From Lachnospiraceae bacterium NE2001 (GTDB taxonomy: Bacteria; Bacillota; Clostridia; Lachnospirales; Lachnospiraceae): a stretch of 64,000 bases of DNA. The notes below the pieces were generated by a model. The model was not told where the DNA came from. It ran no database searches and saw only the letters and a list, made by a program, of their open reading frames with translations. The first letter of the stretch is position 1. Each line of letters starts with the position of its first letter. Of the stretch, positions 14,817-30,270 are shown in pieces. Made by a program: the position numbers and the translations under genes. The stretch spans positions 1-64,000 of the forward strand of contig FOEK01000017.1 in assembly GCA_900110635.1 (NCBI GenBank). Direction: 5' to 3'.

Positions 14817-15704
14817 ATGTTAGTTGCGAAAGATTTAGTGAAAAGCTTTATAAGGACGAAGGAGAAAGGCCGTAGGGAGGAGTTTAACGCGGTTGATGGA
14901 ATCTCTCTTACGGTGCGCCCTGGCGAGATAGTTGGTATTCTTGGCCCAAATGGTGCTGGCAAGACTACTCTTCTTCGTATGCTTGCTAGTCTGTTAAAAC
15001 CGACTTCCGGAGAAGTATATATTTCACAGATAATGGAAGTGGATTCCAACGCAGGAAAGTCAGATGCTGGATCAGAACTAAAGAATACCGGTGCCAGCGG
15101 AACAGTGGCTAGGGACAACACGGAGGTTCTGACTGCTGAGGATGGCAGGAAGCTTCACCGTGTTAAGGATCCGCTGATCATAAAGAGTTATATAGGTTAT
15201 CTGTCTGGCAATACCAAGCTTTATGGCAGGCTTACGGTACGTGAGCTGATGCAGATGTTTGCAGGTATATATGGAATTCCTGACAGTGAGATTCCTGACA
15301 GAATAGAGAAAGTTAACGAGCTGCTGGATCTTGGCGAGTTTATTGATAACCGTATTGAGAAGCTGTCTACGGGACAGACTCAGCGGGCTTCGATCGCGCG
15401 GTGCATAGTGCACGATCCGGAGATTTATATATTTGACGAGCCGACGCTGGGACTGGATATTCTCAGCAGTACGGCCATTATTGAGTTTATGAAGAGCGAG
15501 CGGGAGCGGGGGAAGACCGTCATCTATTCCACCCATTATATGGAGGAGGCGGAATATCTCTGCGACCGTATTATTATGCTTAATCACGGCAAGGCTATCA
15601 CCAACGACAGCCCTGACCAGCTGAAGGCCCGCACCGGAGCGTCCGATATGCGAGGTGCATTTTACGAGATTATAAAAGCGGAGGGTATCGCTTATGAGGA
15701 GTAG
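14817..15704 (+). CDS. ABC transporter ATP-binding protein (NatA-like)
   Basis: 295 residues. Walker A GPNGAGKT (43-50), signature LSTGQ (183-187), Walker B IFDEP with D207/E208, and the H-loop 'YSTHYMEEAEYLCDRI'. It powers the exporter whose permease is the next gene. An insertion of about 40 polar residues (roughly 64-105) lies between 'PTSGEVYI' and 'IIKSYIGYLSG', where NatA-type proteins have a short turn. No Shine-Dalgarno precedes the ATG and an in-frame TAA stands two codons upstream. With the -10 box ten bases before the ATG, this points to leaderless translation. It overlaps the permease start. Confidence 0.93.
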   Translation: MLVAKDLVKSFIRTKEKGRREEFNAVDGISLTVRPGEIVGILGPNGAGKTTLLRMLASLLKPTSGEVYISQIMEVDSNAGKSDAGSELKNTGASGTVARDNTEVLTAEDGRKLHRVKDPLIIKSYIGYLSGNTKLYGRLTVRELMQMFAGIYGIPDSEIPDRIEKVNELLDLGEFIDNRIEKLSTGQTQRASIARCIVHDPEIYIFDEPTLGLDILSSTAIIEFMKSERERGKTVIYSTHYMEEAEYLCDRIIMLNHGKAITNDSPDQLKARTGASDMRGAFYEIIKAEGIAYEE

Positions 15705-17847
15705 GATGGTAAAAATGCTCCTCAAGAAGGAGCTTCTTGATGTGTTCCGTGACCGCAAGGCCATAATAATGCTGGTGCTGGTTCCGCTGCTTATATATCC
15801 GCTCATATTCTTTGGCTCTTTTGCAGTGCTGACCCTGATTCAGTCAAGCATAGTTGAGGGCGAATACAAGGTTATTGTGGACGTGGATGATGACGGCGCT
15901 CTTATGGATCAGATATCTGTCTATAACGCTGACAAGGCTGAAAAAGCTAAGGAATCAGACGATTCAGATGATGAAGACCAGCAGATAGAGGCGGTTTCAT
16001 TTGACCAGTTTTTAAAGAACTCAAGCTACGATATAGCTGATGATACAGCTGAGACGAAGTCTGCCCTTGTGGAGACCATACTTCAGGATGAGGCCGCAGA
16101 TGTTTACGTGTCCAGCGAGAAGGATGATGCAGGCCTCATCACCTACACCACCAGATATGTGTCGTCCATCACGGATTCGAATTATGCCGAGATCGTGGTA
16201 AAGGATATTCTGGATGATCTGTCGGATAAACAGATGAAGCAGTCCATCGAGGATGCTGGTCTCGATGCAGATGAGATAACGCATCCATTTGGAATAAAGA
16301 GGTTAAATATCGCCAGCAACGAGCAGTCCGCAGGAAGTCTCCTGGGAATGGTGCTGCCATTTATGCTGGTTATAAGTCTCCTGATGGGAACCATGTATCC
16401 AGCCATTGATACCACGGCTGGAGAGAAGGAGCGTGGAACTCTCGAGACGCTGTTGACGCTGCCAATCAAGAATCACGAGATGATCTTTGCAAAGTTCATT
16501 ATGGTTGCGCTGATGGGAATTATTTCAGCCCTGTTAAATGTCATATCTATGGGCTTTATGATTTTCTATATGGTGAAGCTGGTTCAGTCCGAGGCTGCAG
16601 TAAGTCTTGGATTTGATCTTAAAAGCTTTAATTTTGCCAGCTTTCTTCCGGCCAGCCTTGTAACAATACTGGCTATTATGGCATTTTCCCTTTTTATTTC
16701 GGCAGTCACCATGTGTATTACCGCCCTGGCCAAGTCTTATAAAGAGGCGAATAACTACATCACACCGCTGACTCTGGTAGTTATGCTGACGGGCTATATT
16801 GGTTTTATTCCGAACATTGAGCTGACCAATAAGATGGCTATGATCCCGGTTGCAAATATCTGCCTGCTTGTAAAGAATCTGCTTCTGTTCAAGGCTGACG
16901 TAGGCCCTATTGCTATAGTTCTTTTGTCAAATGTAACCTATGCCGGTCTTGCCATAATGCTTCTCAGCAAGATCTACGACAGTGAAAGCGTGCTGTTCGA
17001 CGAGGGACGAAGTGCACTTCAGCTCTTTGAGAGACGTTCAAATATTGTGGCTGGTGGAACTCCAACTTCCGGTGACGCATGGTTCATCGTATTCTTTGTA
17101 ATGATCATATATCTCTATGTTGGTTCTATCCTTCAGCTGAATTATGGTCTGAAGGGTATCTTTGGCAGTCAGATGATCGTGTTGTTTCTGCCGCTTATTC
17201 TGGCAATCTATACAAAGAGAAGTCTAAAAAAGACCTACAGCTTCAGACTGACGAAGCTCACAGGATTTGTTGGTTCGGTGCTACTTTTTCTAGGTTCATT
17301 TCTCCTGGAAAATATAGTTTCCACAATGCTATATCAGTTCTTCCCAAAGGAGTTTGAGGATACCAACAGCGGGCTCCTTGATCTGCTGGGAGGATATAAT
17401 TTTGGAATTGCACTGCTTGTCGTAGCATTTACCCCTGCTATCTGCGAGGAAATGATGTTCCGTGGATTCATCCTGTCTGGATTTAAGAGCAAGTACAGGA
17501 AATGGACGGCCATTGTTCTGTGCGCCTTTATTTTCGGAGTATATCATACCAGCCTCATAAGGCTTATTCCTACTATGATGCTTGGTATATGCTTTGCGAT
17601 GATAGTTTATTACACGGGAAGTATTATCCCGGCTATGATGATGCACTGCCTGAACAATGCCATCGCAGTTGTGGAAATGTACTACCCAGGCTGGCTGGAG
17701 GAGAACTTCCCGCTAGTCTTCGGTACCGATGAGACAATACTTGGCTCGGTTGTACTGGCCCTGATAAGCGTTGTAATAACCTTTGCAGGTGTGCGACTGC
17801 TTCAGATGGTATCCAGAGCCAAGACAGGGGATGGTTCTCCGTCTTAA
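15694..17847 (+). CDS. ABC-2 type permease fused to a CPBP intramembrane protease
   Basis: 717 residues. The N-terminal ~460 resemble NatB/ABC-2 permeases: one TM near 20-45, a large external domain (about 46-210), then TMs with 'GEKERGTLETLLTLPIKNHEM'. The C-terminal ~200 residues are a CPBP (CAAX protease/bacteriocin-processing) domain with E585-E586-x3-R590, H618 and H651-x2-N654. Such fusions accompany NatA-like ATPases in several Clostridia and may combine processing and export, or give self-immunity; the substrate is unknown. The last residues (KTGDGSPS) are encoded by a family B repeat. Starts at 15694 or 15706 are both possible. Confidence 0.88.
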   Translation: MRSRMVKMLLKKELLDVFRDRKAIIMLVLVPLLIYPLIFFGSFAVLTLIQSSIVEGEYKVIVDVDDDGALMDQISVYNADKAEKAKESDDSDDEDQQIEAVSFDQFLKNSSYDIADDTAETKSALVETILQDEAADVYVSSEKDDAGLITYTTRYVSSITDSNYAEIVVKDILDDLSDKQMKQSIEDAGLDADEITHPFGIKRLNIASNEQSAGSLLGMVLPFMLVISLLMGTMYPAIDTTAGEKERGTLETLLTLPIKNHEMIFAKFIMVALMGIISALLNVISMGFMIFYMVKLVQSEAAVSLGFDLKSFNFASFLPASLVTILAIMAFSLFISAVTMCITALAKSYKEANNYITPLTLVVMLTGYIGFIPNIELTNKMAMIPVANICLLVKNLLLFKADVGPIAIVLLSNVTYAGLAIMLLSKIYDSESVLFDEGRSALQLFERRSNIVAGGTPTSGDAWFIVFFVMIIYLYVGSILQLNYGLKGIFGSQMIVLFLPLILAIYTKRSLKKTYSFRLTKLTGFVGSVLLFLGSFLLENIVSTMLYQFFPKEFEDTNSGLLDLLGGYNFGIALLVVAFTPAICEEMMFRGFILSGFKSKYRKWTAIVLCAFIFGVYHTSLIRLIPTMMLGICFAMIVYYTGSIIPAMMMHCLNNAIAVVEMYYPGWLEENFPLVFGTDETILGSVVLALISVVITFAGVRLLQMVSRAKTGDGSPS
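17821..17847 (+). repeat. Family B palindromic repeat, copy 2 (inside coding sequence)
   Basis: AAGACAGGGGATGGTTCTCC-type copy that forms the last eight codons and stop of the permease gene. Confidence 0.85.
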
Positions 17848-17873
17848 AAAAAAATTGTTAGGATAAAACACGA

Positions 17874-19007
17874 ATGAATAATGAGTATGATGAGTACGAG
17901 GCAGATTATGGAGCTGAGTATGATGATGAGTACGAGGCGGATTATAGAGCCGAGTATGAAACAGAGATAAAACGTAAGAGGGTGGAAAAACCTGAGCCAA
18001 ATGAAGCTCTCAGGCGCAAGGTGGTCCGCTACCGTAAGCAGGTCATCGCTTACCGGGTTCTTCTGGGACTGATCCTTGTGGCAGTGGCACTTTTCGTGGT
18101 GATCATGGTATTTGAGAACCGTGAGAAGGCGGAGCCGGTTGACTTCTCGGGAGTACTGGATGAGAAGATAGCATTTCATATAGATAAGGACATAGAGGGA
18201 CTCGGAGAGTTTCAGGATATCAAGTCAATGATCGATGATAATTATATGAGATATCTGCACAAGGCTTATATCCTTTTTGGCGAGTATCCTGACTGCGAGT
18301 ATTATAAGATCAGTCCAAATGTTAAGAGAAATGATTTCGATTGGAATAAGGATTTCTACGTAAATAGCGATGGCCTCTATTACAGTTATTTCAAGGACGG
18401 CGAGGATAAGGGCCGCGTGGCAATTGATGTGTCCGAGTTTCAGGGAGATATTGAATGGGACAAGGTCAGGGACGCTGGTGTTGAGGTCGCCATAATCCGA
18501 ATAGGCTACCGCGGTTACGGAACAGGTGCTATGAAGAGTGATACCAAGGCAATTTCCAATATTGAGGGAGCTCTTGCGGCTGGACTCGAGGTTGGAGTTT
18601 ATTTCTTCTCTGCAGCTATAAATCGCGAGGAGGGAATCGAAGAGGCAAACTTCTGTCTTGATATGATAAAGGGCTACAACATAACCCAGCCGGTTATCAT
18701 AGACTCAGAATATATAGCAGAAGACGAGAGTGCCCGTTCCAACAGCATTTCAGTTGATGACAGAACGGACGTTGTAGTGGGCTTCTGCGAGACCGTAAAG
18801 AATGCAGGCTACACGCCGATGATATACGGCAGCAGGGATCAGTATCTGAGATATCTGAATATTGATCCTATCGGCGACTACGAGTTCTGGCTTGCATCTT
18901 ACGATACAACAGATTTTCCATATCATACCGAGGGCTATCAGTATTCCCGCTATGGATACGTGGATGGCATAATCGCCTACGTAGATCTGGACGTCTGGAT
19001 GCGCTAA
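17874..19007 (+). CDS. Membrane-anchored GH25 muramidase
   Basis: 377 residues. An acidic, tyrosine-rich N-terminus made of a repeated ~12-residue unit (EYDxEYEADYxA, residues 4-29) is followed by a basic stretch and one transmembrane helix (about 59-80). After a linker (81-180) comes a GH25 barrel: 'VAIDVSEFQGDIEWDKVRDAGVEVAIIRIGYRGYG', then 'VYFFSAAI' and 'PVIIDSEYI'. The family hydrolyses the MurNAc-GlcNAc bond of peptidoglycan, and D and E residues in the DVSEFQ and DSEY strands fit the active site. The topology puts the repeat in the cytoplasm and the enzyme outside. It may remodel the wall or help the adjacent exporter. The GH13 gene follows 17 bases later. Confidence 0.88.
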   Translation: MNNEYDEYEADYGAEYDDEYEADYRAEYETEIKRKRVEKPEPNEALRRKVVRYRKQVIAYRVLLGLILVAVALFVVIMVFENREKAEPVDFSGVLDEKIAFHIDKDIEGLGEFQDIKSMIDDNYMRYLHKAYILFGEYPDCEYYKISPNVKRNDFDWNKDFYVNSDGLYYSYFKDGEDKGRVAIDVSEFQGDIEWDKVRDAGVEVAIIRIGYRGYGTGAMKSDTKAISNIEGALAAGLEVGVYFFSAAINREEGIEEANFCLDMIKGYNITQPVIIDSEYIAEDESARSNSISVDDRTDVVVGFCETVKNAGYTPMIYGSRDQYLRYLNIDPIGDYEFWLASYDTTDFPYHTEGYQYSRYGYVDGIIAYVDLDVWMR

Positions 19008-19024
19008 AAAAGGAGGAAGAAATT

Positions 19025-20335
19025 ATGTGGTACGAGGAGTCAGTTTTTTATCAGATTTATCCCCTTGGATTCTGTGGAGCACCATTTGAAAATGATGGGA
19101 TACAGGAGTCAAGGATTCTAAAGGTTGTTGACTGGATACCTCATATAAAGAAACTGGGGGCAAATGCTATCTATTTCTCACCAGTTTTCGAGTCGGATAC
19201 CCACGGTTACAACACCCGAGACTATGGACTTATTGATAAGCGTCTTGGAACCAATGAAGATTTCAAGAAGGTGGTGGACGAGCTTCACGCAGCAGGGATC
19301 AAGGTGGTTCTGGATGGAGTTTTTAATCACGTAGGCAGAGGCTTCTGGGCTTTCCGTGATGTACAGGAAAAGAAATGGGACTCTCCTTATAAGGATTGGT
19401 TTCATATATCATTTGACGGTAATTCAAATTATAATGACGGCTTCTGGTATGAGGGCTGGGAAGGTAATTACGACCTGGTAAAATTGAATCTTCATAACCC
19501 GGCTGTTGTTGATCATATCTTTGACAAGGTTAAGTATTGGGTGGACTATTTTGATATAGATGGTCTGAGACTGGACGTGGCCTACTGCCTGGACAAGGGC
19601 TTTATCCATAATCTGAAGGAGTACACAAAGGGGCTGAAGCCAGAGTTCCTGCTTCTTGGTGAGCTGCTTCACGGCGACTATGCTCAGTTTGTGGGCGAGG
19701 GAATGCTGGACAGCTGTACTAACTATGCCTGTTACAAGGGCCTTTTCTCAAGCTTCAACTCTATGAATATGTTTGAGATAATTCATTCGCTGATGCAGCA
19801 GTTTGGTCCTGAGGACTGGTGCCGTTACAAGAATATGCATCTTATGAGTTTCGTTGATAATCACGATGTAACTCGTATCGCAAGTATTCTTTCGAATAAG
19901 AAGCATTTGCCACTTGTATATGCGCTGACCTTCGGTATGCCAGGCTTCCCATGTGTTTATTACGGAAGTGAGTGGGGAACCGAGGCTCGTAAGGAGGAGG
20001 GCGACCCGGCACTTCGCGTGAGCTTCGACAAGCCAGAGTGGAATGAGCTTACAGACCTGATCGCAAAGCTGGCTGAAATAAAGAAAAACAGTGAGGCACT
20101 GAACTACGGTTCCTTCCGTAGTGTGGTTCTTACAAATCACCAGTGCATCTTTGAACGTAAGTCTGCAAATGAACGGATAATGGTAGCAATAAATGCATCA
20201 GATCAGCCATATACGGCACATTTTGATGCTGGTTGTGGACAGGCCGATGAACTGATAACTGGAACACTCCACGACTTTGGTGGTGGTTCAGAGCTTGCTC
20301 CATACTCCGCAGAAATCTGGAAAATGGAACGCTAA
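19025..20335 (+). CDS. GH13 alpha-amylase family glucanohydrolase (cytoplasmic)
   Basis: 436 residues with no signal peptide, so it acts inside the cell on maltodextrins or glycogen fragments. The (beta/alpha)8 barrel motifs are present: 'DGVFNHVG', 'GLRLDVA' with nucleophile D184, 'LLGELLHGD' with acid E213, and 'FVDNHD' with D281. A short C-terminal beta domain follows (about 345-436). It is short for GH13 and lacks the long domain B of secreted amylases. The likely partner is the phosphorylase at 8166. AGGAGGAAG precedes the ATG and a strong terminator follows. Confidence 0.93.
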   Translation: MWYEESVFYQIYPLGFCGAPFENDGIQESRILKVVDWIPHIKKLGANAIYFSPVFESDTHGYNTRDYGLIDKRLGTNEDFKKVVDELHAAGIKVVLDGVFNHVGRGFWAFRDVQEKKWDSPYKDWFHISFDGNSNYNDGFWYEGWEGNYDLVKLNLHNPAVVDHIFDKVKYWVDYFDIDGLRLDVAYCLDKGFIHNLKEYTKGLKPEFLLLGELLHGDYAQFVGEGMLDSCTNYACYKGLFSSFNSMNMFEIIHSLMQQFGPEDWCRYKNMHLMSFVDNHDVTRIASILSNKKHLPLVYALTFGMPGFPCVYYGSEWGTEARKEEGDPALRVSFDKPEWNELTDLIAKLAEIKKNSEALNYGSFRSVVLTNHQCIFERKSANERIMVAINASDQPYTAHFDAGCGQADELITGTLHDFGGGSELAPYSAEIWKMER

Positions 20336-20348
20336 AATGTTATATGAT

Positions 20349-20379
20349 GCCGCGGGAGTAGGGAGCCCGCGGCGTTTTT
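20349..20379 (+). terminator. Rho-independent terminator of the GH13 gene
   Basis: Eight-pair GC stem GCCGCGGG / CCCGCGGC, nine-base loop, then GTTTTT. Confidence 0.93.
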
Positions 20380-20532
20380 GCAACAGCAAGTGATTTTCTT
20401 CGAAAATCGATGGCTGAGCTTCTAGCTTAACGCCGCCTGCCCACACAGGCACGCATGTGCCTGCGTGGCACTGCGGCTTGCTAACGTGGCACCGATTTCT
20501 TCGATGCTCGAAGAAATCGTTACCTGTGTTGC
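20380..20532 (+). mobile_element. Family D MITE-like element, full copy
   Basis: About 153 bases with related ends: GCAACAGCAAGTGATTTTCT on the left, and GCAACACAGGTAACGATTTC read inward from the right. Internal hairpins are GATTTTC/GAAAATC, AGGCAC/GTGCCT and a 12-pair CGATTTCTTCGA/TCGAAGAAATCG stem (20492-20518 region). No coding capacity. The right half recurs at 24989-25042. It is MITE-like in form, and its right end also lies at promoter distance from the next gene. Confidence 0.55.
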
Positions 20533-20560
20533 GCTTTTGTTATATGACTTAGTTTAGAAT
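20532..20560 (+). promoter_or_regulatory. Possible promoter of the kinase-like gene
   Basis: TAGAAT (20555-20560) lies exactly 17 bases after CGCTTT (20532-20537) at the edge of the family D repeat. The second copy has the same geometry (CGCTTT 25033-25038, TATACT 25056-25061). The -35 match is poor. Confidence 0.35.
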
Positions 20561-20603
20561 GGTAATTGTAGTAGAAGTTATTGTTTTGATCTGGGGTGGT
20601 ATT

Positions 20604-23411
20604 ATGGCAGGAAAGAACAGATTAAATAAAAGGCGAGCTGAATATCTGAAGGCGAAGGGCATCTATGCAAGTGCCAAGAGGGACGATCCGCTGTATGAGC
20701 AGAAGATAGCTCTGGCAGAGGCGTATAATGCACTGGCAGAGAAGATGGAGGTGGACGAGCCTCTGAGTGCTGATGCCATGAAATCTCTCGCTGAGCTTTA
20801 TAAGGATGTTTTGGACAAGTCTCACCAGCTTTCGCATACGGCTCAGGAACTGATCCAGGGTCCAGACAAAAGAAAATATGATGTGGATTCGTTAAAAAAT
20901 CAGATCGCTCAAAATGATTTTCTATCCCAGAAGCTGGATAAGGATCTGAAGGCCATTGAAAAGACGGCCGAAAAGAATGAGCAGAAGTCATTAAATGATA
21001 TATATGAGACATCACGCGTCAACTCGAATTATGACGTGCTTCCGGATGAGAACAGATCTTCGTCTCACGGTGCGCAGAACTCGAGAATCGCGGTTACACT
21101 TAAGGATAAGACAACTGGTGCGGAGATTAAGGGATATTTTACTCTTGATAATAAGGCCAGGGAAAAGAAAAGCTATGTAAAAGAGACATTTGAAAATGCT
21201 AAAAAGAAATGGGGTAAAGCGGCAGACTTTATAACTCTGGACAGCCTTGAAAAAACCTATGAGGATTTTAAATGCTCTTATTCTGCTATGTTGAGTTACA
21301 TAGCAAATGATATGGAACAGCTGTCATTTATGCCATATAAGGATGCTCACGCTGCACTGACAAAGAATCTGAATGATTTTCTATATGGAAAAGAGCTTCT
21401 GAAGATGATCGATACCCCGGAAAAGCTGAAAATATTTGTGAATGTTGCGAAGCCGGTTTATCTTGCTGAGAATATTGCAAGCGTAGCTAATACAACCGGA
21501 ATAGAAGAGGGGCAAAATATAAACAGAAGAAATGCTGCTATGAGTGAGGTGGCAGCATTACTTGGCCATCCTAATCTTCTTGCACAATCGGAAAATGTTA
21601 AGATTAATATAGATGGCCAGGAAATGAAGGGTACCTTCATGAAGGAGGCAAAGGGCGACGATATAAAAAAGCTGGGAATAGATTCTGATTTCTTGAAGGT
21701 CGGAATGGAGAGCCTAAATGAGCTGGAGCTGAAGAAGACACTGGCAGATATTCAGATTGTCGATTATATATGCGGTAACCCAGACAGACATGGTGGAAAT
21801 ATGTTATATAGCCTGGTGAAGAATCAGGATGGCACCATCAGCATAAAGACAGCTCAGGGTATTGATAATGATACCTGTCTTGGAACAAGAAATTATGATG
21901 GTATATCATCCCTTAGTCCTACTCATCTACAGGATATAAATGTTATCACCAAAGAAATGTCTGAAAAAGTGATGGCTCTTACGCCGGAGAAACTGAAGCA
22001 GACGCTGTATGGCTTCAAGCTTTCGTCAGAGGAGATAGATAATTCGATCGAGAGACTTAAAAAGCTTCAGGAGAAGGTTGTTGCAGATCAGAAGCTTTAT
22101 TCTAAAGGCTATGGAAAGGGCTATCTTGTTGAGAATACCATCAAGGTAGTTAATGATGAAGAACTGGATGAGCTTCGAATTAACGAGGATCTTCGAATTA
22201 GAAATGGTGGAAAGAATATATTTAATAGAGCAACATCCATTGCAAATGCAAAGTCTAGGATCAATGATACTGTGATTCAGGCCAGAGATAAATATTATGA
22301 GACTGCTTATAAGGCAACAACTGATGGCCTCGGAAAACTAAACCAGATAATTACTAGTATGAATAAAGACTCAAATATCACTGATATTTCACCAAAGTAT
22401 TCGGAGATGGTGAAGAACATGGAAGCTCTTAAGAAGATGATAGTAAATGTCAAGGGGCCTATTATCGGTGAGAAGGTTGATGTGAGCAATGGACATACCG
22501 AAAGCATCATAAAGATTAGGGAACAGATGAATAAGACTGTTAAGTCTGTTTATGAGTATAGAGATTATAAATATAGCAAAACAAAGGGCGAGGAATGGAG
22601 AGAAGCAGGTCCGGGTCATGTTGTCACAAGACAGGAGCGGCGGTTTAATCATTCTACAGATGCGCTGAATCTCCTGATGGGGCAGCTTGAAATGTTTGAC
22701 AAGCTAGATGAAAACTTAAAGACCTATAACGAATATAATTCAAAGAAGGCTTCGCTGCTGGAAGCTGCGGAGAAGCGTGAGGAGGATTATAAGAAGAGCG
22801 ATAAAGTAAAGCATCAGAAAGAAGTATATGAGAAGAATATGCTTCAGAATCACATTTCCAGAAGTGAGTATAAGACACTGGAGGCATTTGAAAAAATACA
22901 GAAGGCTGAAACTCCTGAGGCCAGGGGTATTGCACAGATTGAATATGACCTGATCCTGGGTTATTCAGTGGCTGGCCTAAAGCCTGAGGATAGGGAGGCT
23001 TATAAGAAGAGGGTGAGCGAACAGACTGGAACAGAGATAACTGCATCGGATGATGAACTGCTTAAGAAAGCCTTTGCTTCGCAGCTTGTCCTGACCAAGT
23101 ACGAATGCCAGCAGGTGGATGAGAAAAGAAGAGATTTTGATCATAATAACGTATTGAAGAATCTGGAAAACCTGGATATCACAGATCCGGAAAAGGCCGT
23201 GAATATCCTTATGAGAAATAAAGGCTTTGGAAAGCTCTTTACAAAGAACAAGGATGATATGCTTATTACCAAGGGGTGTGAGAAGCTTTCGACAGTGGCT
23301 ATACCTACATTTAATAAGGTATCGATACTTACAACAAATCTGGTAAATGAGATCAAACGCGGAGCTCAGCGTGAGACAAATGCTAAAATGGAAAAAGGGC
23401 CTGTTCACTAA
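20604..23411 (+). CDS. Large protein with a PI3/4-kinase/HipA-like catalytic core
   Basis: 935 residues, cytoplasmic (no signal or TM from the chosen start). A helical, charged N-terminus (1-170) precedes a core with 'GQEMKGTFMKEAKG' (a possible nucleotide-binding lysine strand). The catalytic loop is ICGNPDRHGGNMLY, with D394-R395-H396 and N399, and the metal-binding segment is GIDNDTCLG (IDND 420-423). That order and spacing match the D-R-H-x-x-N ... I-D-x-D pattern of phosphatidylinositol-kinase-like and HipA-like kinases. The C-terminal half (480-935) is helical and lysine/glutamate-rich. The substrate is unknown. The start at 20604 has GGGGTGG; an upstream ATG at 20559 has no RBS. Codons are more A/T-rich than in neighbouring pgi. 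Confidence 0.65.
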   Translation: MAGKNRLNKRRAEYLKAKGIYASAKRDDPLYEQKIALAEAYNALAEKMEVDEPLSADAMKSLAELYKDVLDKSHQLSHTAQELIQGPDKRKYDVDSLKNQIAQNDFLSQKLDKDLKAIEKTAEKNEQKSLNDIYETSRVNSNYDVLPDENRSSSHGAQNSRIAVTLKDKTTGAEIKGYFTLDNKAREKKSYVKETFENAKKKWGKAADFITLDSLEKTYEDFKCSYSAMLSYIANDMEQLSFMPYKDAHAALTKNLNDFLYGKELLKMIDTPEKLKIFVNVAKPVYLAENIASVANTTGIEEGQNINRRNAAMSEVAALLGHPNLLAQSENVKINIDGQEMKGTFMKEAKGDDIKKLGIDSDFLKVGMESLNELELKKTLADIQIVDYICGNPDRHGGNMLYSLVKNQDGTISIKTAQGIDNDTCLGTRNYDGISSLSPTHLQDINVITKEMSEKVMALTPEKLKQTLYGFKLSSEEIDNSIERLKKLQEKVVADQKLYSKGYGKGYLVENTIKVVNDEELDELRINEDLRIRNGGKNIFNRATSIANAKSRINDTVIQARDKYYETAYKATTDGLGKLNQIITSMNKDSNITDISPKYSEMVKNMEALKKMIVNVKGPIIGEKVDVSNGHTESIIKIREQMNKTVKSVYEYRDYKYSKTKGEEWREAGPGHVVTRQERRFNHSTDALNLLMGQLEMFDKLDENLKTYNEYNSKKASLLEAAEKREEDYKKSDKVKHQKEVYEKNMLQNHISRSEYKTLEAFEKIQKAETPEARGIAQIEYDLILGYSVAGLKPEDREAYKKRVSEQTGTEITASDDELLKKAFASQLVLTKYECQQVDEKRRDFDHNNVLKNLENLDITDPEKAVNILMRNKGFGKLFTKNKDDMLITKGCEKLSTVAIPTFNKVSILTTNLVNEIKRGAQRETNAKMEKGPVH

Positions 23412-23428
23412 TGAACAGGTTCTTTTTT
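23400..23428 (+). terminator. Terminator overlapping the end of the kinase-like gene
   Basis: CCTGTTCA / TGAACAGG stem whose CTAA loop carries the stop codon, then TTCTTTTTT. Confidence 0.9.
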
Positions 23429-23457
23429 ATGCCACTCGCGAACTAGCGCTTTTTTTA

Positions 23458-23486
23458 TTGTAAAGAGCGTCGAAAAAGCGTATAAT
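23458..23486 (+). promoter_or_regulatory. Promoter of pgi
   Basis: -35 TTGTAA (23458-23463), 17-base spacer, -10 TATAAT (23481-23486). Confidence 0.8.
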
Positions 23487-23564
23487 GCAAGTTGCCTGTG
23501 AGGTTAAGAAAATCTTAGGGGAACAAAGATATTCTGTATATAAATAAGAAAAGGAGCAAGTATT

Positions 23565-24917
23565 ATGGCACAGAAGATTAGTTTTAATTTCGATAATACT
23601 AAGTTTAAGGCAAGTGATGCAGAGGTTGCTGCAATCAGACCTAGAATTGAAGCAGCTAAGAAGACTCTTGTTGAGAAGACAGGCGAGGGAAATGATTTCC
23701 TTGGATGGATCGATCTCCCAGTTAACTATGATAAGGTTGAGTTTGCTCGTATTAAGGAAGCAGCTGCAAAGATCCAGAGCGATTCAGATGTACTTCTTGT
23801 AATCGGTATCGGTGGTTCTTATCTTGGAGCCAGAGCTGCAATCGAGGCACTTCGTCACAGCTTCTACAATATGGTTTCAAAGGAGGTTCGTAAGACTCCT
23901 GAGATCTACTACTGTGGTAACAACCTTAGTTCAACATATATTGCAGAGCTTGTTGATGTGATCGGTGATAGAGATTTCTCTGTAAATGTTATCTCTAAGT
24001 CTGGTACTACAACAGAGTGCTCTGTTGCATTCCGTCTCTTCAAGGGCATGCTCGAGAAGAAGTATGGCAAGGAAGGCGCTGCAAAGAGAATCTATGCTAC
24101 AACAGATAAGGCACGTGGAGCTCTTAAGACTCTTGCAGATGCAGAGGGTTATGAGACATACGTTGTACCTGATGATGTAGGTGGTCGTTTCTCAGTTCTT
24201 ACAGCTGTTGGTCTTCTTCCAATCGCTGCAAGTGGAGCTGATATAGATAAACTTATGGAAGGTGCTGCAAACGCACGCGAGTACTGCCTTGCTGCAGATT
24301 TCGATACAGATGTTATGCAGTATGCAGCAGTTAGAAATGTCCTTCATGAGAATGGACTTGGTATGGAGATCCTTGGTAACTTCGAGCCAGCTCTTCACTA
24401 TGTAACAGAGTGGTGGAAGCAGCTTTACGGAGAGAGCGAAGGTAAGGATGGCAAGGGTATCTTCCCTGCAGGCGTAGACTTCACAACAGACCTTCACTCA
24501 CTTGGACAGTTCATCCAGGAAGGAACAAAGAATCATTTTGAGACATTCATCAATGTTGTAAATCCTAAGAAGTCAGTTACTATGACAACTGAGGATGAGG
24601 ATCTGGACGGTCTTAACTACCTTGCTGGCAAGGAGGTTGACTTCATCAACAAGTGTGCTATGGAGGGAACAATCCTTGCTCACGTTGATGGTGGTGTTCC
24701 AAACATCCGTATAGATATGGAAGAGATTGACGAGCTTGCTCTTGGTGAGCTGTTCTACAAGTTTGAGTTTGCCTGCGGCGTAAGTGGTTATACACTTGGT
24801 GTTAATCCTTTTAATCAGCCAGGTGTTGAGGCATACAAGAAGAACATGTTCGCACTTCTTGGCAAGCCAGGCTTTGAGGAGATGACAAAGGAGCTTCGTG
24901 CTCGCCTTGGCAAGTAA
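23565..24917 (+). CDS. pgi: Glucose-6-phosphate isomerase
   Basis: 450 residues, the Gram-positive Pgi length. Interconverts glucose 6-phosphate and fructose 6-phosphate in the cytoplasm. Seen: '[22 protein letters not shown]', 'SKSGTTTE' (phosphate binding), '[17 protein letters not shown]', and '[15 protein letters not shown]'. AAAGGAGCAAG precedes the ATG. It has its own promoter and a strong terminator, so it is a single-gene unit between the two large unknown genes. Codon choice is that of a highly expressed gene. Confidence 0.97.
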
Positions 24918-24939
24918 TATCCTGAATAAGTAAAATATC

Positions 24940-24972
24940 AAGTGGCAGCGGAATCTTCCGCTGCCACTTTTT
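24940..24972 (+). terminator. Rho-independent terminator of pgi
   Basis: Fourteen-base arms AAGTGGCAGCGGAA / TTCCGCTGCCACTT, then TTTATTT. Confidence 0.93.
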
Positions 24973-24988
24973 ATTTATAGCTTAATGC

Positions 24989-25042
24989 GGCACCGATTTC
25001 TTCGATACTCGAAGAAATCGTTACCTGTGTAGCGCTTTTGTT
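24989..25042 (+). repeat. Family D repeat, right half, second copy
   Basis: GGCACCGATTTCTTCGATAC... through GCGCTTTTGTT, identical to 20488-20541 except at about two positions. It keeps the 12-pair CGATTTCTTCGA/TCGAAGAAATCG stem. It lies upstream of the 1430-residue protein as the first copy does for the kinase-like protein. Confidence 0.85.
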
Positions 25043-25124
25043 GCTCTTTGGGGTGTATACTGTGATTTATAAAGATTTCATTGTGGTTTTTTGCACGAAA
25101 ATGTTATTTCGAGAGGTGAAGATT

Positions 25125-28100
25125 ATGCCAAAGAAAACAAAAAATGAATGGTTGAGAAAATATAGTGGACCTTATGCTGAGTATGAGTTTGCCAGTCAGG
25201 CTAGAATGGTGATTTTAGAGGCAGTTCCAATTATTGAAGAAGAAGCTAACGAGCTTGGAATTAAGCTGAGAGATTCAATAACAGATTATGTTGATACAAC
25301 TACCGAGCAGGATTATGGTAAGCCTACTAAAAGAGTTGTTATAAATCTGGCTCAATTACAGAATCGAGATGGAGACCTTGACAAGGCCAATCAGCTGTAC
25401 GAGGTGGTTGATGAATGCAAGAGGTTTTCAGATGATTTCCTGAATAATCTTGAGGGATCTAAAAAGATATTCAAGGAATTCTATAAACTTAACTTTATTA
25501 ATCTCGATATGTCACGTGATGATCATAGTTATATACAGACCTATTATGATAATCCCATTCTTACAGCTACTCCAATGCTTATGGGTTGTGGACCGTTACT
25601 CCAAAAGAAGTTGGGTTCAAAGGAACCGGTTGATTATGAGAAGCTTGAACGTGATCTCAGGAAGCCGGATGGAAGGGGCTTCCTTGTTCCATATTTGAAT
25701 ATGTGCAAAGCCGTGAATACCATGCATGAACTGAATTACCAGAAGGAGCATAACGATAGGTTTGGCTGGACCCCTAATGAAAAGCAGGAATATTTAAAGC
25801 AGTATAAGACTGTGCTTAAGTCATTTATAGATAACTTTGATGAGCTTAGCAAAACTGTAGAAAAAAATGGAAATCTTTATAAGATGGGGGAACATTTAAA
25901 TAATATACCAGAGGAACTGACTAATTCAGATAGAGATATGACCCATTATGTTGGTCAAATGAGAGGTCAGCTTAAGGCTATAGAGAATGGCTGGTCGTTG
26001 GAGGAGCTTCCTCTTATGGGGCAGATAGGCGAGGATCTTGCTCTTATAGATAGATACGTAAAGCGTGCACCTAAACAATTGCAAAAATCTAAGGATGAGC
26101 TTAAGGGACTTCAGAATGATATCAGTGATATCAACAAAGGGATAGATGAACTAAATATTGAATTACTGAAGCTTCAAAAAATATCTGAGGAAAGAACTAC
26201 TCCCAAAGGTCCTAATCAGCTGTCTGAGGCTGATCGACTGAAGCTTGAGAATAAGGAGATACTTGACTGGCATAAGGAATACTCCAAGACTCTTAAGGAG
26301 ATGGAGAATAAAAAAACTGATAAGTCAAAGATAGATGCATTCAAGGCCGAAAATGCAGAAAAACTAGAACAATATGAAGCATTTAGATCCTTGTATGAGG
26401 AGTTTACTCTTTCTACGCAGATTGAAGCAATGAAGAAGCGTATTAAGGATGAACAAAAAGAGATAGAGAAAAAGCAGAAAGCTATTAAGAATAAAGAGGC
26501 TGAACTAGTTGAATGTTCAAAGGCTATAGTTGAAAGCGAAAAGGCTCGTTCTGAGTCATATAAGCTAAGACATTTTGCTTGGAATAAGAAGATCAATAAT
26601 CAGAATGACAAGATAGAGGTTCTGAATGAATATAAGAAATATATATCAAAGGTAAAGGATCTGAAGCTTAGTTATGACCATTTGTTTACAGAAACCTTTG
26701 CAACCGAAAATGATAAGCCTCTTGAGGATGTGGAGAAGAAGATAACTACTGGGTATGATGAAGTTGTTGAGTTAAATGAATATGCAAAGAAAAGAACCCA
26801 GTTCGATATTGATATCTATGGACCAAATCCTAAGTATCATGACGAGTGGGAATCAAAGAATGTAATGTCTCGTCAGGATTTTGCCCAGTTTATTGTGCCA
26901 TATCATGATCAGACGATGAAGGGTCTGCCTTTTAATGAAAAGGAGATGACTTATATTAATATGGCTGCAACCCTGGATGCAAAGGATGCAATCAGAGAGG
27001 CATTTAAGAATAATCCTCAGGGGGCTCTTAGCCCTGAACAGCTGGCATTTCAGAATTATTCTAACTGGATGGAGGATTTCAGCGTGGATGATGATGGTCC
27101 ACGTGCCGGAACTTATCAGTTTAAGGGAATAATTCAGGCAGGCAGAGAGAGGGGCCTTGAGGCTATGCAGAAGTATGCAAGGGGAGATAAAGCTCCTGTT
27201 GCAGAGATGATGCAGAAGCTGATGTATCGAACACAGAAGAACTTTGATCAAGTCGCAACCATAGGCAGGAATGCACCACATTTCTATAACCAGCTTAATA
27301 CCTTTACTGGAATGCTGGAGAAGGATCCGGGACTTTTGAAAGAATTTCAAAAGTATAATGCTAAGCAGCCTAAGAATGTCAGAGTTGATCTTGATAAGAT
27401 CAAAAAGATAAAGACTATATCAAGACTTCATTTGGAGTCTCTTAATGATGCAGATCGCTACAAAGAGTTTGTAGAGCAGTATGATAAGAATCTGGAGAAT
27501 GCTCTGAAGGATTGCTATGGTAAGGATGAGCGTCAGAAGGCTAAGAATTCTCTTGATAATCAGGGACAGCGTCTTAAGCTGAGTGCTCTAAGACATGATA
27601 TTCTCAATACTGTATCTAATGCAGCTGATAAGTATCGGAATACAACGAAACCATTTATTGATTCTGCGAATAAGATGAATGAAGAGGCGTTAGCAGGTAA
27701 CCCGGTGCTCGCGATTCATAAAAAGTTTGTTACTGATAAGAATAACTCTGAAATGAGTGAGTTCTTTAAATCTGTTTCTACATCTGAAGGTTTGAAGGAA
27801 TTTGATGCCTTTACTGACACGCTTATTGAGAAATATGGCCTTGATTTTGATGTCGAGAAGGGTCTTACTATGGGCGGAAAGCGTGTCGGAGAGGATCCTC
27901 GATTTGACTATGAATGTCAGAAGTATATGCTGGAATGTGAGCAGAAGAAGCTTCTGAAGGAAATCAGCTCCGGAGAATATGAGCACAAGGTAAAGAGCGA
28001 AGAAGTTAGAAATGAACTTATTTCCAAGTACATGGTAAATAATCGTCAAATCTGTGAGCTGGAACGTGCCACAGAAACTGGCGTGCTTATGTCATTTTAC

Positions 28101-29417
28101 AAAAGGGATGAGAGCTATTCGAAGGATAATATTGATAAGGGCGTTGCTTACGAGAAGAAGGTAAAAGATTATATCGAGAAAATGGACTTCTCCAGCATGA
28201 ACCCTGCTGAAATAGCTGAGCAGCTGAAGGTGGGCAAATATTCACTTGACGCTGTTTGCGGCGATATAGAGACGATAGTTGATAATGAGATGTATGCTGA
28301 TCCAAAGAAGATTCAGGAGAAGCATTTTACCAGTCTTGAACAGAATGTATCAGTTTTATCAAGCAAGAAGTACTATAAGAAGGGCAGCGCCGAGTTCGAC
28401 AAGCTCGTTGAAGAATTGCAGGAGCTGTGGCATAAGCATATTAACCTGGAAAAAGACTTCAAGGATATGCCTCACCATCCTTATGATGCCAAGGCTATAG
28501 CTGAAGAGGAGAAGAAGCTCCTTGACAGGATGGATAAGTATCTGCAGCGTAAAAAAGATGAAAAGGAAGCTGGCAAGGATAGCAAGATGGCCAGATCCAG
28601 AGTTGATGTAATGCAGGCAGCAAGAAATAGGCTGGCTACAAGACTTGAAGAAGATCTCAATATGGCTGACCGTTCTGAGGAGAGGCTTAAGGGTGCTGAA
28701 GCAACGGCTGAGCTGATGAATAAGAAAATAGAGAAGCGTAAGGACGTAGCTGAGGTAACAGGTCAGGAAATCCTCGATTCTGGAATAGAAGAAGAGGTAT
28801 ATCAGAGAAATCAGTTCGCAAAGAACGCTAAAGAGGCTGGCCCTAAGATCATAAATGACACTGAAAAGATTGACAGACTCTATGAATCTGTAAAGAATAC
28901 CCTCTATTACCAGACACTTAAAGATGTATTTGGACCGAAGAAGGGTGACAGCAGGATAATAACTGAGAAGAATAGTAATATGCTTAAGGCAAAGCTGGGA
29001 GAAGGCTTAACCCCCGAGGCTGACAAGGCCATGAATAACATAATGAATACCAGGTTTGGCAAGATGATAACAACTACTCTTCTAAACAATATGATCAATG
29101 GCAAGGCTGACACAAGTCACGAGGGAATAGTCAAGCTTCGTGATGAAACCCTGAGAAAATGCTTCAAGCTCGCTATGGATGATAAGAATCCAAATAGGAA
29201 AGCAGATGTTAAAGAGGTTCTCGAGGTTGGACAGTCACTGGGATCTCCAGAGCTTACCAAGGAATATCTCAACTACGAGAAAGCCCAGAAGGAGGCGGCC
29301 AGAAAGGCAGCTCAGAAGAAGATGGAAGAAAAGATGAGCCTGAAAAAACTGGAACAGAAAAACCCAGACCAGAAAAAGCTAGAAAAGAAAGAAGAAATAA
29401 AAGGACCTAAAAAATAA
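25125..29417 (+). CDS. Giant helical/coiled-coil protein of unknown function
   Basis: 1430 residues from the ATG at 25125 (GAGAGGTGA upstream); the longer frame from 25038 has no RBS. No signal peptide, membrane segment or enzyme motif is visible. It is strongly helical, with a coiled coil at about 320-480 ('ELKGLQNDISDINKGIDEL', 'KKRIKDEQKEIEKKQKAIKN') and a lysine/glutamate-rich C-terminus (about 1386-1430). I do not recognise it. It shares with the kinase-like protein the size class, base composition, upstream repeat and perhaps a short C-terminal motif (N-x-I/L-M...FGKxx). It could be a structural, effector-like or scaffold protein. A family A palindrome supplies its terminator. Confidence 0.6.
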   Translation: MPKKTKNEWLRKYSGPYAEYEFASQARMVILEAVPIIEEEANELGIKLRDSITDYVDTTTEQDYGKPTKRVVINLAQLQNRDGDLDKANQLYEVVDECKRFSDDFLNNLEGSKKIFKEFYKLNFINLDMSRDDHSYIQTYYDNPILTATPMLMGCGPLLQKKLGSKEPVDYEKLERDLRKPDGRGFLVPYLNMCKAVNTMHELNYQKEHNDRFGWTPNEKQEYLKQYKTVLKSFIDNFDELSKTVEKNGNLYKMGEHLNNIPEELTNSDRDMTHYVGQMRGQLKAIENGWSLEELPLMGQIGEDLALIDRYVKRAPKQLQKSKDELKGLQNDISDINKGIDELNIELLKLQKISEERTTPKGPNQLSEADRLKLENKEILDWHKEYSKTLKEMENKKTDKSKIDAFKAENAEKLEQYEAFRSLYEEFTLSTQIEAMKKRIKDEQKEIEKKQKAIKNKEAELVECSKAIVESEKARSESYKLRHFAWNKKINNQNDKIEVLNEYKKYISKVKDLKLSYDHLFTETFATENDKPLEDVEKKITTGYDEVVELNEYAKKRTQFDIDIYGPNPKYHDEWESKNVMSRQDFAQFIVPYHDQTMKGLPFNEKEMTYINMAATLDAKDAIREAFKNNPQGALSPEQLAFQNYSNWMEDFSVDDDGPRAGTYQFKGIIQAGRERGLEAMQKYARGDKAPVAEMMQKLMYRTQKNFDQVATIGRNAPHFYNQLNTFTGMLEKDPGLLKEFQKYNAKQPKNVRVDLDKIKKIKTISRLHLESLNDADRYKEFVEQYDKNLENALKDCYGKDERQKAKNSLDNQGQRLKLSALRHDILNTVSNAADKYRNTTKPFIDSANKMNEEALAGNPVLAIHKKFVTDKNNSEMSEFFKSVSTSEGLKEFDAFTDTLIEKYGLDFDVEKGLTMGGKRVGEDPRFDYECQKYMLECEQKKLLKEISSGEYEHKVKSEEVRNELISKYMVNNRQICELERATETGVLMSFYKRDESYSKDNIDKGVAYEKKVKDYIEKMDFSSMNPAEIAEQLKVGKYSLDAVCGDIETIVDNEMYADPKKIQEKHFTSLEQNVSVLSSKKYYKKGSAEFDKLVEELQELWHKHINLEKDFKDMPHHPYDAKAIAEEEKKLLDRMDKYLQRKKDEKEAGKDSKMARSRVDVMQAARNRLATRLEEDLNMADRSEERLKGAEATAELMNKKIEKRKDVAEVTGQEILDSGIEEEVYQRNQFAKNAKEAGPKIINDTEKIDRLYESVKNTLYYQTLKDVFGPKKGDSRIITEKNSNMLKAKLGEGLTPEADKAMNNIMNTRFGKMITTTLLNNMINGKADTSHEGIVKLRDETLRKCFKLAMDDKNPNRKADVKEVLEVGQSLGSPELTKEYLNYEKAQKEAARKAAQKKMEEKMSLKKLEQKNPDQKKLEKKEEIKGPKK

Positions 29418-29418
29418 C

Positions 29419-29477
29419 AAAATGTGCAGCTGGGGACGGACCTATGTGCAGTGGGGACAGTCCCCACTGCACATTTT
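29419..29477. repeat. Family A palindromic repeat, copy 2
   Basis: The element contains a perfect palindrome at 29445-29473 (TGTGCAGTGGGGAC, A, GTCCCCACTGCACA). It is followed by TTTTTGTTTTT, so it also works as the terminator of the preceding gene. Confidence 0.9.
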
Positions 29478-29482
29478 TGTTT

Positions 29483-29692
29483 TTATTCATCGGGTACGAA
29501 CTCCAGTATGTCCCCTGGCTGACACTCCAGGGCGGTGCAGATTGCATTTAACGTCGAGAAGCGTATAGCGCTGACTTTTCCAGTTTTTAGCTTTGACAGG
29601 TTGACGTTGCTGACGCCCACTTTTTCACTGAGCTCGTTGAGACTCATTTTCCTATCCGCCATAACGCGGTCTAATCTTAGTATTATTGCCAT
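29483..29692 (-). CDS. YozG-type XRE family regulator
   Basis: 69 residues, a single helix-turn-helix: 'MADRKMSLNELSEKVGVSNVNLSKLKTGKVSAIRFSTLNAICTALECQPGDIL'-like, split here by position: HTH at about 15-40. Small XRE proteins of this kind (YozG of Bacillus) are regularly encoded just after a DUF2975 membrane protein (YoaS), as here. It probably represses its own operon. The start at 29692 is chosen for AAGGAGG close upstream on the minus strand. The gap to the upstream partner is 10 bases. Confidence 0.9.
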   Translation of the reverse strand: MAIILRLDRVMADRKMSLNELSEKVGVSNVNLSKLKTGKVSAIRFSTLNAICTALECQPGDILEFVPDE

Positions 29693-29702
29693 GTCCGCCT
29701 CC

Positions 29703-30200
29703 TTATATTGTCTCGTCGGATTCCTGCTGAAGAATCGCTCCATACTTTATGACATAAGCAAGGAAAACGAACAGCAGGCCTATGAGAATATTAACAGGAG
29801 AAAACAGAGTTGGCAGGAACTCTTGATGATATCCGAGAACGATAATGGCGATAGTGGAAGGGATAAATCCTTCAAGGATTGTCAGTATACCTATCACACG
29901 GATTATCTGAGCATTTTTATTTGCAAATGGTGCTCCATTTCTCGATATAGTGATAAACATTATGGCTGAAATAAGCATTACTATTGTAACAATGCAAAAT
30001 GCGATTCCATTTTTTAAAAATGCATATTGATTCATGTATGCAAGTGAATCGGAAGTATATTGTTCATCCGTAAGTCTTGTATAAGCGCCAGATAGATAAC
30101 TAATGGATATGATGCTTTCAAGTAGTGCACAGGTTATGCATATGATGCCTATTATAAGGCTTCCTTTCTTCATTTTACTAATAACTATGTCTTTATTCAT
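29703..30200 (-). CDS. DUF2975 membrane protein (YoaS-like)
   Basis: 165 residues with four predicted membrane helices (about 15-37, 60-85, 97-120 and 130-150) and short polar ends. DUF2975 proteins pair with YozG-type regulators; the membrane protein may sense a signal or hold the regulator, but no function is proven. The start at 30200 has GGAGG six bases upstream on the minus strand. Confidence 0.85.
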   Translation of the reverse strand: MNKDIVISKMKKGSLIIGIICITCALLESIISISYLSGAYTRLTDEQYTSDSLAYMNQYAFLKNGIAFCIVTIVMLISAIMFITISRNGAPFANKNAQIIRVIGILTILEGFIPSTIAIIVLGYHQEFLPTLFSPVNILIGLLFVFLAYVIKYGAILQQESDETI

Positions 30201-30270
30201 AAAAACCTCCACGAATTGTCTTTTAATAAACCGGCTTACACAGGGCCGTTCCTCTCCCTGTGTTGAAGCG

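Follow-up and report, generated by a model that had tools for sequence, protein, structure and literature searches.

A giant kinase-like protein of Lachnospiraceae as a candidate type IV secretion effector with a putatively displaced ATP anchor

Protein kinases canonically anchor ATP through a lysine of strand β3, and several described members of the fold depart from this arrangement. Passages of PMC10211241 place the lysine of WNK1 and POMK in β2, where it is needed, and parts of PMC5865150 describe how FAM20 pairs its lysine with a glutamate other than that of helix αC. In one Legionella kinase family, the lysine is replaced by an arginine and no glutamate is identifiable (sections of PMC9758233), and 'DYD' pseudokinases likewise have arginine for lysine and lack the αC glutamate (sections of PMC12599244). 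Helicobacter pylori CtkA depends on a type IV secretion system (T4SS) to affect gastric epithelial cells, and deleting its C-terminus abolishes this effect (excerpts of PMC5536186); the 89K T4SS of the Gram-positive Streptococcus suis is reported to export the protein SspA-1 (excerpts of PMC12857230). Here, we describe a 935-aa kinase-like protein (P0001) encoded at positions 20604–23411 of a 64,000-nt stretch of DNA from Lachnospiraceae bacterium NE2001 (contig FOEK01000017.1, positions 1 to 64,000; the whole stretch is called the window). We lean, if only slightly, towards reading it as a giant putative T4SS effector that carries an atypical, probably active kinase and is sent to another cell.

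Translation of the open reading frame (ORF) yields the 935 aa and the coordinates given by an earlier, sequence-only reading, together with the motifs from which that reading had derived a kinase: GTFMKEA (residues 343–349), GNPDRHGGN (391–399) and IDND (420–423). The kinase-like fold is borne out by both sequence profiles and structure comparison. When the whole protein is searched with hmmscan, PI3_PI4_kinase (PF00454; E 1.9e-4, 21.9 bits) and Fam20C (PF06702; E 0.019, 15 bits) are matched, both under their curated cut-offs (27.1 and 26.8 bits, respectively). Across 32 aligned family rows, PF00454 matches all 32 and PF06702 matches 24 at E ≤ 0.1, with best E-values of 7.8e-9 and 3.5e-8; some members may pass the cut-offs. 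A profile of these rows finds FAM20C (E 5.6e-6) and FAM20A (E 1.8e-5) in the PDB. The kinase match is beyond chance, because PF00454 is found in every one of the 32 rows, FAM20C is recovered by profile and the motifs are near-invariant in 84 domains (see below).

Residues 141–540 were modelled from a seven-row alignment (predicted local distance difference test (pLDDT) 76.7, predicted template modelling score (pTM) 0.77), and the model supports a protein-kinase-like domain at residues ~150–500 with a predicted fold nearest to PI4K-II, FAM20 and CtkA, then HipA. Foldseek matched PI4K-II (E 7.8e-7), although the TM-scores were modest (0.36–0.40 by query length). VIA-align gave PI4K-II-beta a Z of 16.6 over 229 residues (root-mean-square deviation 4.0), followed by hydra Fam20 (15.0), CtkA (14.5), Fam20C complexes (13.8–14.2), HipA (11.4) and CotH (10.5); families missing from these two lists are not thereby excluded. 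Protein-kinase-like folds were matched with both tools, which supports the earlier assignment to a PI3/4-kinase- or HipA-like core; HipA is listed at a lower Z than PI4K-II, FAM20 and CtkA. Judging from fold and alignment, D394, N399 and D421 are predicted to share one pocket. The helix-rich character claimed for the protein holds for the modelled parts (the N-lobe insert and residues 520–935), with residues 1–140 lying outside the models. For the C-terminal half (residues 520–935; pLDDT 74.5, pTM 0.48), Foldseek gave no match at E ≤ 0.001 (best E 0.21).

The protein falls into a kinase family without a name, rich in paralogs and to date found almost exclusively in a single bacterial family. 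The NE2001 genome alone holds six kinase domains in four genes, two of which encode twin-domain proteins of ~1330 aa. In its genus, matches to the kinase at E ≤ 1e-15 occur in 29 of 61 genomes (1–6 matches each); at the level of the bacterial family, 23 of 299 genomes pass E ≤ 1e-4, and 13 of these have matches below 1e-20. Six of the nine weakest family-level matches were read: L063 is a degenerate member, and five (L061, L062, L064, L070 and L071) were set aside as another DRH-motif family of ~370 aa, which occurs in related genomes and carries (G/N)N.DRH..N and DHD(H/R)AF motifs. In a sample of the phylum, only 3 of 398 genomes match at E ≤ 1e-5, namely NE2001 itself, G277 (same family) and, weakly, G074 (same order, E 3.4e-7). 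Named members are Lachnospiraceae records, including AC2029, NC2004, LC2019 and one from goat omasum. The earlier suggestion that such kinases are undescribed agrees with our searches, as the window protein has no NCBIfam or PADLOC match and nothing above a Pfam cut-off, and our searches of open-licence papers yielded no such family, nor any T4SS effector set in Lachnospiraceae. Carriage by mobile elements was considered and dropped: tblastn of the kinase core found no phage record at E 0.01 and only one weak plasmid record (Comamonas, annotated as phosphatidylinositol 4-kinase). Separately, proteins with PI4K/FAM20-like kinase domains occur on viral contigs (L044, L045, L046 and L047), some of them sharing an ORF with what we take to be phage head- or portal-like sequence.

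The link to secretion comes in part from gene neighborhoods outside the window. Contig C30 of NE2001 carries, at 110–170 kb, an array of 14 soluble ORFs of at least 466 aa that includes a twin-kinase protein (pieces at locus ends were joined by eye and counted as one gene each). Downstream of the array lie SpoIIE (PF07228, 3.2e-43) and HATPase (PF13581, 2.1e-21) genes at 170–172 kb, the former 35 kb from the twin kinase, and at 180–199 kb the genes for VirB4 (PF19044, 4.5e-18), VirD4 (PF02534, 3.3e-54) and a T4SS pilin (PF18895, 2.2e-9). Also downstream of the array are genes for a 2002-aa surface-type protein, two-component proteins and a cell-wall hydrolase (PF07486, 1e-19), and all listed ORFs of at least 250 aa in this array–T4SS stretch are on one strand. 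In G100, which belongs to another genus of the same family, one contig has, in order, kinases, SpoIIE, the surface-type protein, VirB4, VirD4 and pilin; its VirD4 is 82.6% identical to that of NE2001. The adjacency of array and T4SS is thus seen in two genera. The same T4SS occurs in G024, G049, G055 and G002 without an array in the stretches read, and kinases of NC2004 (L039, adjacent) and G277 (L116) likewise have SpoIIE homologs nearby.

Kinase and T4SS also occur together across genomes. NE2001-type VirB4 (E ≤ 1e-30) is present in 28 of the 61 genus genomes: 24 of the 29 with the kinase and 4 of the 32 without it (p 2.5e-8, uncorrected for phylogeny or mobile-element load). Among 31 high-quality genomes, it is present in 15 of 18 with the kinase versus 1 of 13 without (p 3.9e-5). 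Within the genus, the kinase is not associated with other T4SS types: in genomes lacking the NE2001-type system, it is found in 3 of 14 with other T4SSs versus 2 of 19 without (p 0.63). The kinases appear more divergent than the machine: the best full-length kinase matches in six genomes (G024, G028, G034, G048, G050 and G059) are 33–39% identical, although perhaps not strict orthologs, versus 75–83% for VirB4. Such divergence beside a conserved VirB4 is what would be expected of fast-evolving effectors. Two other secretion routes were examined and rejected: the type VII marker YukC (PF10140) is above cut-off in 0 of 61 genomes (three weak matches, none in NE2001), and the contractile injection sheath (PF04984) is found in 6 of 61 and not in NE2001.

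A companion gene in the window encodes a giant protein whose homologs occur in 10 of the 61 genus genomes, all 10 with the NE2001-type T4SS, and in G003 and G031 regions homologous to it are fused to a kinase domain in one ORF (1946 and 1845 aa). Ten array stretches and a 3090-aa soluble array protein (L105:1620-10892) have no Pfam match above cut-off. As a separate observation, a ~230-aa region, mostly near the C-terminus, is common to several otherwise unlike array proteins (L060, L065, L066 and L068).

Kinases and array proteins have basic, poorly hydrophobic C-terminal tails in common. In a first set, where array proteins were taken as those of at least 400 aa with low hydropathy (33 of 44 candidates kept) and the background left out the companion, the mean net charge of the last 30 residues was +3.84 for 45 kinases, +3.85 for 33 array proteins and −0.13 for 127 others. 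Terminal motifs were picked after inspection of this set: G[PM] in the final nine residues of 16/45 kinases, 11/33 array proteins and 2/127 others; an MP start in 19/39, 3/27 and 2/127, respectively; and an M[KR]E start in 3/39, 9/27 and 0/127. In loci fetched later, tail charges were +4.33 (6 kinases), +3.38 (13 large soluble proteins) and −0.58 (85 others), and MP starts were found in 3/6, 6/13 and 0/85, where the large soluble class (14 proteins, 13 with a closed C-terminus) includes kinases missed by the regular expression. G[PM] replicated weakly in these loci (large soluble 3/13, kinases 1/6, rest 2/85).

Beyond this genomic link, we infer each step. The giant soluble proteins with similar termini, the kinase included, would form an arsenal and most likely serve as substrates for a T4SS on the chromosome of these Lachnospiraceae. 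The tail, perhaps together with the N-terminus, would mark a giant protein for the coupling protein, and in the recipient cell the kinase core would transfer phosphate (or AMP) to a target. A broader proposal strikes us as a serious possibility that falls somewhat short of even: a protein-delivering T4SS in gut Gram-positives, with many giant modular effectors (~470 to >3000 aa), shared terminal signals and one effector class consisting of kinases whose ATP anchor has moved from a β3 lysine to a β2 arginine. With a machine and with candidates for its substrates and enzymes now named in gut bacteria, the question becomes testable.

Several observations weigh against export, in addition to the choice of motifs after inspection, the mixed composition of the later large soluble class, the weak replication of G[PM] and the uncorrected co-occurrence statistics. 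The test of the NE2001-type T4SS followed searches for YukC, for the sheath and for PF02534 in general. Many kinases lie outside long arrays, including the window gene and those of C20 and C25; the window gene and the T4SS are on different contigs, and the window protein has a tail charge of only +2 and starts with MAG instead of MP. Five of the 29 kinase genomes lack the NE2001-type T4SS, two of these without any PF02534 coupling protein, and four T4SS genomes lack the kinase (among them G051, which has the companion). Furthermore, no such T4SS is seen in the stretches read around the divergent kinases of G227 and G277. An alternative is an intracellular kinase or scaffold that is never exported. 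The giant proteins would then assemble inside the cell, with basic tails for binding to nucleic acid or membrane, and the T4SS link would reflect shared lineage or shared SpoIIE-type regulation. This alternative, which we consider rather unlikely, can draw on the window gene's distance from the T4SS, the five kinase genomes without it, the lack of a signal peptide in the window kinase as judged by eye, and the SpoIIE homologs in kinase-holding or adjoining stretches of four genomes (NE2001, G100, NC2004 and G277). It accounts less readily for the fast divergence of the kinase against conserved T4SS genes, its patchy presence (29/61) and its selective association with a single T4SS type.

Turning to catalysis, the active site was followed through 84 non-redundant domains (135 profile hits, less duplicates and rows gapped over most of the core; the fractions ignore gaps), which superseded an earlier set of 43 chosen by motif regular expression. 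D394 is kept in 82/84 domains, N399 in 83/84, D421 in 81/84 and D423 in 80/84; the profile was trained on motif-bearing rows, so that very degenerate members may be missed. R309 and N310 are found in 77/80 and 76/80 aligned domains. The ATP-anchoring lysine of β3 is not kept: T180 stands there in 69/72 aligned domains and lysine in 1/72. In an hhalign comparison with six kinase domains of viral contigs, N310 falls on their αC glutamate, which the family has thus not kept either, and with the long insert cut out T180 falls on their β3 lysine. At the sequence level, a basic residue of β2 takes the place of this lysine, since R161 is present in 69/70 aligned domains.

The sole profile-aligned Lys180, in L072, comes with valine at 161. 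Six further divergent members (three in L118, and L056, L057 and L130) have, by eye, a β3 lysine and no Arg161; their rows are gapped at 161/180 in the profile alignment, and the readings of L057 and L056 are the least sure. Several of these six carry a G-rich loop. Lys180 and Arg161 thus look mutually exclusive. In a tree of 80 family and six outgroup rows, the seven rows with lysine (K-type) group together and two threonine (T-type) rows lie at the base; the K/T label needs two changes, and the root is weak. Because both states occur in one family, the pattern offers a natural experiment on ATP binding by kinase folds. Apart from this, the K-type kinase genes of L118 (G227:C89) and L116 (G277:C1) have genes for GNAT acetyltransferases as neighbors (PF00583, E 6e-8, 5e-6 and 4e-6), perhaps as a paired modification system.

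From this conservation, we suggest that the FAM20/PI4K-II-like domain is probably catalytically active, with D394 as the catalytic base and N399 and D421 binding metal. Arg161 of β2 would anchor ATP instead of a β3 lysine, and R309 may help to hold it. Loss of the lysine could also mean a pseudokinase, in which the domain, without lysine and αC glutamate, would serve for binding or allostery and have no catalytic activity. We judge this unlikely. T180 and N310 do occupy the lysine and glutamate positions of related kinases, 3 of the 84 domains are degenerate, and FAM20A is described as a pseudokinase without a conserved glutamate in parts of PMC10211241 and PMC5865150. However, the catalytic and metal residues are nearly invariant across 84 divergent domains, loss of the lysine is accompanied by R161, and WNK1 and POMK retain activity although their lysine has moved (passages of PMC10211241).

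The giant proteins might also be conjugation helpers, if the T4SS were conjugative with another relaxase class and they traveled with the DNA or acted in the recipient. DNA transfer accounts for nearly all known functions of Gram-positive T4SSs (excerpts of PMC12857230), and PF03432 was the only relaxase family searched genome-wide. That search found none in NE2001, no relaxase family was matched by the 19 ORFs of its T4SS locus scanned with Pfam, and a large array of giant proteins adjoins the T4SS, all of which makes a conjugation helper improbable. A HipA-like toxin of a toxin–antitoxin pair, or a phage-defence kinase, is very improbable: HipA is among the fold matches (Z 11.4) and the K-type relatives of G227 and G277 neighbor GNAT acetyltransferases, but PI4K-II and FAM20 are nearer, PADLOC returned no match for either window protein and a single weak AbiEi-like one among 10 array proteins, and, as the sequence-only reading had held, no HipB-like partner adjoins (none among ORFs of at least 80 aa at 15000–30000, the nearest recognised helix-turn-helix (HTH) ORF being 6 kb off).

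The features of the gene and its companion are collected below.

Features of the kinase-like gene and the companion gene, in window positions
Feature	Positions	Strand	Remarks
Gene for 935-aa kinase-like protein (P0001)	20604..23411	+	translation
N-terminal region, residues 1–140, start MAGKNRLNKRR	20604..21023	+	boundaries approximate
N-lobe β strands, residues 150–184	21051..21155	+	model and alignments
R161 codon	21084-21086	+	within N-lobe β strands
T180 codon, canonical β3 Lys position	21141-21143	+	within N-lobe β strands
Variable, mostly helical insert from β3 to αC, residues 185–300	21156..21503	+	
αC (R309 N310 xAMS), β4, β5 (GTFMKEA) and hinge, residues 301–356	21504..21671	+	strand names inferred
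C-lobe, residues 375–500	21726..22103	+	catalytic loop GNPDRHGGN (D394, N399), metal loop IDND (D421, D423)
C-terminal helical region, residues 541–905	22224..23318	+	model of 520–935
C-terminal 30 residues	23319..23408	+	net charge +2, end KGPVH
Companion giant protein, 1430 aa from MPKKTK start, end KGPKK	25125..29417	+	start codon inferred

An in-frame ATG lies 15 codons upstream of the start, at 20559, and the start at 20604 is plausible because it is preceded by a purine-rich CTGGGGTGG that ends at 20599. Many relatives begin with MP...R..KR, of which the window protein lacks the MP. The kinase gene is preceded by what we take to be an alpha-amylase-like gene. Between kinase and companion lies a gene (23565..24917, plus strand), presumably for glucose-6-phosphate isomerase, which is unlikely to belong with the kinase. 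Beyond the companion, a small XRE-type HTH ORF (29483-29743, minus strand) overlaps a membrane-protein ORF (29703-30212, minus strand) that we assume to be DUF2975-like; this pair, at 29483-30212, seems unrelated to the kinase.

Among known systems, FAM20 (PF06702) provides the nearest solved relatives by profile and shares the GN.DRH catalytic loop, the DN...FG metal loop and the fold (Z 13.8–15.0). The window kinase differs as a giant bacterial protein in which a long insert precedes αC, threonine stands for the β3 lysine, and IDND is found where FAM20C has LDNG and FAM20A has LDNA. PI4K type II (PF00454) is the best fold match, with its Pfam model found in every aligned row; however, the window protein stays under the Pfam cut-off, has lost the lysine and shows nothing pointing to a lipid substrate. 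WNK1 and POMK belong to other branches of the kinase fold. They share the loss of the β3 lysine and a basic residue in β2 (passages of PMC10211241), but there the moved residue is a lysine, whereas in the window family it is an arginine, R161, with a putative anchoring role. The Legionella family and the 'DYD' pseudokinases, as far as the sections cited above describe them, carry their arginine at the lysine position itself, unlike the β2 arginine found here. CtkA is a bacterial kinase of similar fold (Z 14.5), yet it comes from a Gram-negative host, has ~325 aa according to residue numbers in excerpts of PMC5536186, and is absent from the matches of the 32-row profile at E ≤ 10. Finally, the S. 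suis 89K system exports a protease and lies on a pathogenicity island, whereas the Lachnospiraceae loci described here combine arrays of giant proteins with a conserved T4SS in gut commensals.

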